Shown: one piece after another, positions 29,390-62,271 of the stretch | Numbering within the stretch: the first letter of the stretch is position 1 | Layout: the number at the start of each line of letters is the position of its first letter | Origin: an uncultured Veillonellaceae bacterium | GTDB lineage: Bacteria > Bacillota > Negativicutes > Veillonellales > Veillonellaceae | Assembly: GCA_945867815.1 (NCBI GenBank) | Contig: CAMBIX010000001.1 | Location: 434,001-498,000, forward strand | Direction of reading: 5' to 3' | DNA length: 64,000 bases | Notes under the pieces: model-generated | What the model saw: only the letters and a program-made list of their open reading frames with translations | Told to the model about the DNA's origin: nothing | Databases searched by the model: none | Position numbers and translations under genes: made by a program

Positions 29390-29407
29390 AACTAATATGG
29401 TAAATAA

Positions 29408-29477
29408 GGTAGGGTCTATTCTTCCCTCGCGAGCTAATACTTCGTAAGGCTCTTTAACGGGAAGAATAGACCCTACC
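29408..29477 (+). repeat. Structured intergenic hairpin, family member
   Basis: Perfect 19-base outer arms (29408-29426 and 29459-29477). Inside lies GAGC...GGCTC with an apical TAC-TTC-GTA hairpin, then TTTAACGGGAA. The same core, with different stem sequence, occurs in the elements at 60793-60982 (minus strand). It follows the radical-SAM-like gene in the same orientation and could act as its 3' end. Confidence 0.75.
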
Positions 29478-29637
29478 TTTAACTTAGTACATATATATTC
29501 TCTCTAGGGCTGATACTCTGCAAAACTCTTTAATGGGAAGAATAGGCCCTACCTTTAACTTAATACATATATATTCCCTCTAGGGTTGATACTCCACAAA
29601 GCTCTTTAATGGGAAGGATAGACACCACCTTTAACTT
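29424..29637 (+). repeat. Three tandem 76-base repeats
   Basis: The 3' part of the hairpin (CTCTTTAA-GGGAAG-ATAG-CC-ACCTTTAACTTA) recurs with a 76-base period (GGGAAG at 29459, 29535 and 29611). Copies two and three have lost their own 5' arm, and their 3' arms remain largely complementary to the single 5' arm of copy one. This fills most of the gap between the plus-strand gene and secF. Confidence 0.8.
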
Positions 29638-47520: not shown

Positions 47521-47583
47521 AAAAAGGCAGCACTTATTTCTCCTTAAAGAACCTTTCAGCTCGTAAGGGATATAAGCACCGCC
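47521..47583 (-). terminator. Structured terminator after tatD, hairpin-family member
   Basis: As minus-strand RNA the 12-base outer stem (47583-47572 with 47537-47526) pairs throughout with three G-U pairs. Inside are CCTTA/TAAGG and GAGC...GTTC, and the element ends in TTTTT. The inner strand CCTTACGAGCT and TTCTTTAAGG resemble the cores at 29408 and 60793. Confidence 0.8.
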
Positions 47584-47593
47584 TTCCACACCT

Positions 47594-60096: not shown

Positions 60097-60684
60097 CTAT
60101 AAGACATAAACCGCTACAGGCCGCCGTCCATAATTAATAGCCTCTACGTGATTATTCATACCTAAATCAATACGATTACCAACTATAGCACCACCTACAT
60201 CATCAGCTGTAGCATAACCATAGCCTTCAATATATAGCTTTGTGCCTAAGGGAATCACACTAGGATCAACGGATACATAGCCACGCTGTAAATAATGGCC
60301 ACCAGCTGTATAGTTGGAATTACCTGGATCCTCTGATGAATAGGCTGTTGCATCCATTAATAGCATACGGCGGTAATTATTCGGTAGCCCACTATAAGAA
60401 TGAGTAAACCGTTTATTATTCTCCCGAATAGCGGTCATTGTCCGCCAATCCACATAACCAGTCACAGGCAAACCCTTTTGCTGTTGAAAAGCCCGTACAG
60501 AATATTCCGTATTATTACCAAAAATCCCATCTGCCTGATCTACCAAATAACCTTGATTAATCAGCATCGATTGTACTTGTTGAACTTCACTGCCAGAATC
60601 TCCTCGTCCTACATTGGCAAAAGCCACAGAACAAAGCCCTAACCAGGCTGTGAGGAGTGCTGTCATTAGTATTTGTTTTCTCAA
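60097..60684 (-). CDS. Secreted peptidoglycan-binding/3D-domain protein
   Basis: 195 aa. Signal peptide RKQILMTALLTAWLGLCSVAFA, a PG_binding_1 domain (about residues 25-85: GSEVQQVQSMLINQGYLVDQ, DGIFGNNTEYSVRAFQQ) and a C-terminal 3D domain (DATAYSSED, IPLGTKLYIEGYG, ADDVGGAIVGNRIDLGM) with the three aspartates. It is a likely muralytic transglycosylase. The frame starts earlier (60717), but TTG at 60684 follows GAGGTGG by five bases and gives a proper signal peptide. It is a second 3D protein besides that at 40572-41576. Confidence 0.88.
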   Translation of the reverse strand: MRKQILMTALLTAWLGLCSVAFANVGRGDSGSEVQQVQSMLINQGYLVDQADGIFGNNTEYSVRAFQQQKGLPVTGYVDWRTMTAIRENNKRFTHSYSGLPNNYRRMLLMDATAYSSEDPGNSNYTAGGHYLQRGYVSVDPSVIPLGTKLYIEGYGYATADDVGGAIVGNRIDLGMNNHVEAINYGRRPVAVYVL

Positions 60685-60792
60685 GATGTCCACCTCATAA
60701 TCTAACATCCTCCTCATTTTATCCTACTTTAGTGCTTTTGTCAAAAATCATATGTCTTCTATTATTAGACAATCCCCTCGGCATCATGTCAA

Positions 60793-61090
60793 GAAGCACC
60801 CTGCCATTCTCGTAAGGAGACTTTATCGAAGATAACCAGCTAGCTCCTAAGAGAACGCATAAAGTGTTTCCATACTCTGGCATTAAGATTCCCTAGGCAT
60901 TATATCAAGAAGCACCCTACCGTTCTCGTAAGGAGCCTTTATCGAAGATAACCAGCTCCTGAGAGAATGCGTAGGGTGCTTCCATACTCTGCGTTAAAAT
61001 CCCTAAGCAGGCACTATGTCACGAAGCGGTTCACGTTTCTCGTAGGCGAATTGACGCAGGCATGAGCCCAAGAAATATGTGAACCGCTTC
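60793..61090 (-). repeat. Tandem array of three long structured hairpins
   Basis: Elements at 60793-60870, 60909-60982 and 61023-61090, spaced by about 115 bases. Each has a 12-base outer stem beginning GAAGC, an asymmetric internal loop, a 5-base stem (TTCTC/GAGAA or TTTCT/AGAAA), a second internal loop containing GTAA or CGTA, then further stems. The outer stems differ (GCACCCTAC against GCGGTTCAC) but stay complementary within each copy. The spacers are also related (CATACTCTG...CCCTA). They lie after nhaA in its orientation and lack a T-run, so they are not ordinary terminators. Confidence 0.8.
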
Positions 61091-61116
61091 CGTATTTTAT
61101 ACCATAGAAGCTTTCT

Positions 61117-62271
61117 TTATTTTTTAAGTGCCGCCAATCGCAACACAATGTATCCTAGCACACCGGACAAAATAGAGCCGACAAAAATCCCTACCTTGGC
61201 CAGTTCCTGTGGCGCCCCAGCCATACCTGGCGTAAATGCTAACAAAGAAATAAACAAACTCATAGTGAACCCAATACCACAGCATAAGGCAATGCCATAC
61301 ACTTGCAGCCAAGACGTCTGTGCCGGCATAGGCACCACCTTTGCTTTCACTAGGGCAAATAAAGAACCAAATACACCAATTTGTTTACCAAAGAATAAGC
61401 CAAGCACAATACCTAAGACAACAGGATTAGCCAATGAATCTACATCAAAGGCCGCAAAAGATACCCCTGTATTAGCTAAGCCAAATAAAGGAATAATCAG
61501 CAAAGCAACCCAGTTATTTAACGCATGTTCCCATTCCATGATAGGCGATACATGCCGACCCTGCCGAATACCAGAAAAAGGAATTGTCATAGCTAAAATA
61601 ACACCCGCTAAAGTCGCATGTAATCCGGAATTAAAAACACAATACCAAAGGCCAATACCTAAAACGATATAAGGTATCGGGCGAATATAGCCACTTTTAT
61701 TCATATAAATAAGAAGACCAGTAATAACAGCCGCTCCTACCAAATACAGCCAAGCAATACTACTTGTATAAAAAATAGCAATCACCACAATAGCCATTAA
61801 GTCATCCATAACTGCTAAGGCTGTTAAAAAAGACTTCATAGCTAAAGGTACTCGCCTACCTAATGCCGTCACAATCGCAATAGCAAAAGCAATATCTGTA
61901 GCTGTTGGTATGGCCCAGCCTCTCACATCAATAGCATTGCCACTATTAATAGCATAATAAATAAGAGCCGGCACCAGTAATCCACAAAGAGCAGAAATAC
62001 CAGGAAGCATACGCTTAGCATTGGTATTTAACTCTCCATTAATCATTTCACGCTTAACTTCTAAGCCCACAAATAAAAAGAAAATGGACATGAGCACATC
62101 ATTAATCCATAAATGAACTGGTAAAGGCCCTAACTGCATTTCTAGTGTTTCTTCATATATATGATAAAGCGGGGTATTCGCAATCACAAGACCTAAAGCG
62201 GCCGCTATTAATAAAAGCACCCCACCTGCTGACGAAGACGTTACCAAAAACAACAATCGCCGCATAAACAA
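61117..62271 (-). CDS. nhaA: Na+/H+ antiporter NhaA
   Basis: 384 aa with about 12 membrane segments. It shows VNDVLMSIFFLFVGLEVKREM-like sequence (INDVLMSIFFLFVGLEVKRE), GWAIPTATDIAFAIAI and ALAVMDDLMAIVVIAIFYT with the two adjacent transport aspartates. It exports Na+ or Li+ in exchange for protons. The start may be TTG at 62271 (five bases after AAAGGAG) or the ATG at 62265; the difference is two residues. A leader of about 240 bases precedes it; I see no known riboswitch in it. Confidence 0.95.
   Translation of the reverse strand: MFMRRLLFLVTSSSAGGVLLLIAAALGLVIANTPLYHIYEETLEMQLGPLPVHLWINDVLMSIFFLFVGLEVKREMINGELNTNAKRMLPGISALCGLLVPALIYYAINSGNAIDVRGWAIPTATDIAFAIAIVTALGRRVPLAMKSFLTALAVMDDLMAIVVIAIFYTSSIAWLYLVGAAVITGLLIYMNKSGYIRPIPYIVLGIGLWYCVFNSGLHATLAGVILAMTIPFSGIRQGRHVSPIMEWEHALNNWVALLIIPLFGLANTGVSFAAFDVDSLANPVVLGIVLGLFFGKQIGVFGSLFALVKAKVVPMPAQTSWLQVYGIALCCGIGFTMSLFISLLAFTPGMAGAPQELAKVGIFVGSILSGVLGYIVLRLAALKK

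Follow-up and report, generated by a model that had tools for sequence, protein, structure and literature searches.

The window analysed here, a stretch of 64,000 nucleotides from an uncultured Veillonellaceae bacterium, contains three tandem hairpins between a minus-strand nhaA-like gene and a 3D-domain gene, the gene names being those of an earlier note made from the sequence alone. The features of the locus are given below, where R1 is the covariance model of the repeat family to which the hairpins belong (family A) and R2 that of a related family (family B).

60716..60744, minus strand: sigma-70-like promoter TTGACA-17-TAAAAT, read by eye from the sequence
60778..60882, plus strand: family A copy 1; R1 50 bits, E 6e-9; fold z -3.2; outer stem decayed
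60894..60994, plus strand: family A copy 2; R1 82.9 bits, R2 48.6 bits; fold z -9.0
61008..61102, plus strand: family A copy 3; R1 92 bits; fold z -4.7
61117..62271, minus strand: nhaA-like gene; ORF of 384 aa; name from the earlier note

The putative promoter would serve the next minus-strand gene (ORF 60097-60717), which lies beyond the hairpin array. Three multiply bulged hairpins of common architecture had been described here, and we confirmed them at 60793-60870, 60909-60982 and 61023-61090, with their starts 116 and 114 nt apart and the plus-strand fold z-scores listed above; in 200 dinucleotide shuffles per hairpin, none folded equally well. Although the hairpins are as first given, the conserved unit reaches 15 nt further upstream and 9 nt further downstream, and the full units span approximately 60778-60882, 60894-60994 and 61008-61102. 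The outer stem proposed as common to the three elements is present in copies 2 and 3, where it differs by paired changes as had been reported (GAAGCACCCTAC/GTAGGGTGCTTC in copy 2 vs GAAGCGGTTCAC/GTGAACCGCTTC in copy 3), but it is decayed in copy 1 (GAAGCACCCTGC vs GCATAAAGTGTTTC). Copy 2 has a core of the same type as that of family B. Copy 3, about 14 nt from the stop codon of the nhaA-like gene, belongs to another subfamily (GGTTCAC stem), and its hairpin is 60% identical to that of the adjoining copy 2. None of the three window hairpins has a T-tract, in agreement with the earlier view that a plain terminator does not explain the tandem elements.

A dispersed repeat with conserved ends

R1 was built from 25 genomic copies (alignment A1) gathered by a DNA search of the organism's own genome, and it recovered about 90 family A copies at 65 loci (41 single, 20 double and 4 triple) of the 1.97-Mb genome; counts over these copies are not independent, since the copies share ancestry. 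The consensus, TTAGCACTATGTCAC-GAAGC...GCTTC-CRTACTCTG, has a median length of 96 bp and carries conserved wings of 15 nt before the hairpin and 9 nt after it, beyond which conservation ends abruptly. In the 25 copies, 94.5% of stem cells were paired (shuffles, 78%; slid controls, 26-50%), and double changes occurred in 12 of the 16 stem pairs, so the covariation anticipated by the earlier note held up against controls. The copies group into subfamilies, and whole stem blocks differ among them. No two copies are more than 93% identical, and the closest relative is a neighbouring copy for 10 of 86 copies and lies at another place in the genome for the other 76. Contigs C15, C16 and C17 end in near-identical family A sequence (L108:33-263, L109:33-126 and the end of L111), and it is because of this repeat that the assembly (17 contigs) is broken at those ends.

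Related hairpins with T-tracts

Two elements further upstream in the window had been taken for the same element as the tandem hairpins. Both are real relatives with a common core, but they belong to family B, which behaves differently, and a model pooled from all five elements would confound the two families:

29407..29479, minus strand: family B hairpin (the element at 29408); R2 78.8 bits, core match; just after a plus-strand gene
47522..47586, plus strand: family B hairpin, weak and shortened (the element at 47526); R2 28.8 bits; a T-run comes after it on the minus strand

R2, the model of this family, identified about 50 copies in the organism's own genome. The family B core is approximately [stem]C-GTA-GGGAGC-CT-TTACC-GAA-GGTAA-CCA-GCTCCC-GA-G[stem]; the inner core is common to family A, while the outer stem is fully variable and there are no conserved wings or ends. 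T-tracts (6 T in 8) were present in 28 of 44 cases in sense and 25 of 44 in antisense. With T-tracts on one or both strands, family B looks like a set of predicted bidirectional terminators in which the core is embedded, whereas family A does not. These terminator hairpins are probably the ancestors of family A, or else have a core in common with it. Adjoining the hairpin at 29407-29479 are two very weak family B-like matches (window 29482-29615, minus strand), possibly decayed tandem copies. Lagging-strand genes carry an excess of family B hairpins (22/60 vs 16% expected, P about 6e-5), the opposite of family A.

Range in other genomes

Across the 61 genomes of the order, its own included, R1 gave a single weak and wingless match beyond the organism's own genome, in G009. 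R2 matched six sister-genus genomes (G007, G001, G004, G010, G013 and G016; 6-17 matches each), with isolated weak matches elsewhere in the family; at a strict threshold it found nothing beyond the own genome and the sister genus among 380 genomes of the class. The covariance-model search suggested by the earlier note thus yielded many homologues within the genome itself and relatives in the sister genus, but next to nothing for family A in the rest of the order. With 7 of 380 class genomes and 2 of 102 genera carrying the repeats, their range is limited within Negativicutes, as had been supposed. Sister-genus units are about 200 nt long, with an extra outer palindrome enclosing the same kind of inner hairpin; these nested palindromes include a third subtype with apical CAAACGGTATTTCATAATGTTTG (e.g. 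L181-L187, L217-L221). In another genus, hairpins that stand singly, have no wings and carry a TCTCGTAG core (L061:1501-1615 in G009, L126:1501-1573 in G021) are perhaps ancestral terminator forms.

No Rfam family matched at the gathering score, as had been expected, and relaxed thresholds gave only chance-level snoRNA matches (E about 4). Database comparison gave no phage or plasmid match for the repeats, and a phage or plasmid origin was rejected on that ground. A gapped-pattern scan returned five matches in 85,000 genomes and one in a viral scan, of which the best scored 18.6 bits with the model; all six are probably due to chance. In the literature on Veillonella or Negativicutes we found no described repeat of this kind.

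Orientation relative to genes and replication

The analysis worked with genome stretches taken around the copies; gene calls were ORF-based and replication direction was proxied by GC skew. For 88 of 97 family A copies and 55 of 60 family B copies, the gene on the 3' side of the element has its end facing the element, and most family A copies lie just after stop codons, often at 0-55 nt. Read in element orientation, GC skew is negative at 63 of the 65 family A loci; genes lie on the G-rich (leading) strand in 84.4% of cases (P = 0.0014). For family B the corresponding polarity is 38:22. On contig C1, the copies change strand at 235-281 kb, and the GC skew flips at 233-254 kb. Replication polarity is also kept at three family A loci between divergent genes and at two where the genes point the opposite way, and sites between convergent genes favour the replication direction by about 12 to 1. 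There are two exceptions: locus L106 follows gene direction and locus L083 is reversed. Sister-genus repeats have the same polarity in 25 of 26 cases, with different sequences. At most loci where the two are separable, the orientation of family A tracks replication and not transcription; part of the strand bias could come from a preference for the ends of leading-strand genes. A crude terminator finder, with a baseline of 27%, gave no decisive sign of terminator depletion near family A.

Array composition and turnover

Arrays are head-to-tail with short spacers (6-22 nt in 20 of 26). Adjacent family A copies are 69.5% identical, compared with 63.4% for random copies; with neighbours hardly closer to each other than random pairs, local tandem duplication was rejected as the origin of most pairs. 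Together with their distant closest relatives, this low identity makes most arrays look, on sequence comparison, as if they were joined from independent copies, although some adjacent copies, a minority at 80-93% identity, have the look of duplicates. In six sister-genus species an orthologous site downstream of the same gene carries arrays that vary in number and type from each species to the next, and some units are chimeric; position is stable there while array content turns over. A second sister-genus site (L196:10829-10953) was dropped as a case of turnover because the indel there is not this element.

Paired changes and strand preference

If RNA were the selected molecule, G-U on the selected strand should outnumber A-C in the stems. 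Family A has 40 G-T and 43 A-C mismatches, that is, no strand preference; the corresponding counts are 11 vs 19 in family B (weakly sense) and 19 vs 2 in the sister genus, favouring the other strand. The equality in family A therefore gives no support for RNA selection, with the caveat that the copies are related by descent. Paired stem changes can also be produced and maintained by template switching (PMC8794818), although the conserved asymmetric bulges need a constraint besides it. That paired changes by themselves indicate selection for an RNA is consequently not supported, in view of the subfamilies, the mismatch counts, the replication-linked orientation and template switching. More generally, dispersal and template switching yield paired changes too, so that a structured RNA is not proved by covariation alone.

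Comparison with known elements

The pneumococcal repeats BOX, RUP and SPRITE are small, highly folded interspersed repeats of few genomes that are enriched downstream of genes, SPRITEs lying close to gene 3' ends; they are considered parasitic and non-autonomous, and their leading-strand share is 61-63% (PMC3049150). Family A is BOX/SPRITE-like in its many copies, strong folding, intergenic position and patchy range. It is nonetheless unrelated to these repeats in sequence by inspection, has 97% of its loci in one polarity, lacks target duplication, forms head-to-tail arrays of unrelated copies and is not AT-rich (47% GC in a 40% GC window).

REP/REPIN elements, which are associated with RAYT, are likewise short palindromes in many copies, mostly downstream of genes, with subfamilies that have alternative paired stems (PMC3733652, PMC3116915). 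The family A unit, however, is larger and multiply bulged, and its arrays are head-to-tail rather than inverted pairs. GTAG or CGTC was found at the hairpin foot in none of 86 family A copies, the foot being mostly TCAC, and REP membership was rejected on these motif counts. The Y1 transposase (PF01797; RAYT, IS200/IS605) was absent from the organism's own genome and from the six sister-genus genomes, with positive controls, and an origin from RAYT or IS200/IS605 was rejected for lack of PF01797. Y1 transposases occur in genera that lack the repeats, and the two repeat-bearing genera lack Y1. IS200/IS605-type Y1 transposases are common in genus g4 (G003, G012, G015, G020, G021, G040, G042 and others), with up to 14 matches.

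Single-strand transposition of IS200/IS605 involves hairpin ends and is tied to the lagging-strand template at replication forks (PMC6006769); family A is similar in its hairpin and its link to the lagging-strand template, but it comes without the transposase. Scans of either end noted no full-length element with family A ends, only copies and degraded ends, and no transposon matching the inverted GAAGC/GCTTC arms. Nor was there the target site duplication of a classical MITE, flank repeats of 4 nt or more numbering 4 compared with 6.4 expected.

Integron attC sites fold from a single strand into bulged hairpins whose middle varies, and their arrays line up unrelated units head-to-tail. Family A has such hairpins in such arrays, but it has no gene cassettes between copies and is scattered over 65 loci; the attC boxes RYYYAAC/GTTRRRY were found at the ends of 0/86 copies, and attC membership was rejected on these counts. 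Intrinsic terminators, too, are stable hairpins just after stop codons, and family B carries their T-tracts, whereas family A has hardly any and possesses conserved wings; with a T-tract in only 6-8 of 86 copies, a plain terminator was rejected for family A. We class family A as a small interspersed palindromic repeat, set apart by its polarity, its arrays and its missing transposase.

Discussion

We lean, with modest confidence, towards reading family A as a small interspersed palindromic repeat with the behaviour of a non-autonomous mobile element. This rests on some 90 copies with sharp ends and on a polarity that extends to the skew flip, to loci between divergent genes and to the sister genus; it rests equally on dissimilar array neighbours with distant closest relatives, on array turnover in the sister genus and on the paired changes. 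Against it stand the lack of target duplication and of a Y1 transposase and the two loci (L106 and L083) that break polarity; with no pair of copies above 93% identity, there is also no sign of recent movement. Among the possibilities raised by the earlier note (a structured RNA, a 3'-UTR element or a mobile palindrome), the last fits best.

Dispersal, polarity and array composition are direct observations; insertion and the enzyme behind it are our inference. The unit would fold as a bulged hairpin while one strand is single-stranded at the replication fork. In family A orientation the reverse complement lies on the G-rich, lagging-strand-template side, and the folded strand would be there, as it is for IS200/IS605 (PMC6006769). 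Some enzyme may then copy or insert the folded unit at the fork, often beside gene ends or existing copies, insertion presumably being best tolerated at gene 3' ends. Once established and transcribed, the hairpin may act as a cap or terminator for the upstream mRNA, a predicted secondary effect. The copies may be relics left after loss of the enzyme, or a different enzyme may be used; both are possible. A bolder version, which we advance only as a speculative and rather improbable proposal, is that the hairpin spreads without a Y1 transposase, the folded single strand being inserted at the fork, beside stop codons and earlier copies, by an undescribed recombination enzyme or replication mechanism, with family B as the terminator-embedded counterpart.

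Alternatively, the elements could be structured RNAs in 3' UTRs, transcribed with the upstream gene and stabilizing, processing or terminating its mRNA, in which case selection on the RNA would give the paired changes. The position of 88/97 family A and 55/60 family B copies downstream of a gene ending towards them, often 0-55 nt past the stop, agrees with this, as do the T-tracts of family B and the conservation of the core between families and genera. Yet family A has neither a T-tract nor a wobble preference for either strand, and its orientation tracks replication where the flanking genes diverge or point the other way; we regard this explanation as a serious one, but unlikely. Paired changes would also arise without any selection if the elements were quasi-palindromes in which replication errors rewrite one arm from the other, the copies being relics of an old repeat. 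Template switching is known to create and maintain paired stems (PMC8794818), and it would suit copies that differ by whole stem blocks and the equal G-T and A-C counts in family A. Free correction, however, should erase the asymmetric bulges and the core, which persist in family A, family B and the sister genus, and it leaves the spread, sharp ends and arrays unexplained, so that we consider it improbable.

The 63:2 polarity, its flip at the skew switch and the position downstream of genes might instead reflect a polar site in the DNA with a cellular function, such as the handling of forks or supercoils, whose orientation is kept by selection. Such a site would hardly be expected in merely about 90 copies, with a stem sequence free to vary, and to be absent from most of the family; moreover, the polarity persists in the sister genus although the outer sequence there is unrelated. 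We judge this the case only with very small probability.

In summary, the repeat is probably best read as mobile. Small palindromic repeats are usually attributed to RAYT or IS transposases, and here family A and its sister-genus relatives show a near-perfect replication polarity without that transposase, with head-to-tail arrays in which most copies are unrelated. This raises a testable question: can hairpins be spread by the replication process itself, or by an enzyme not yet known?
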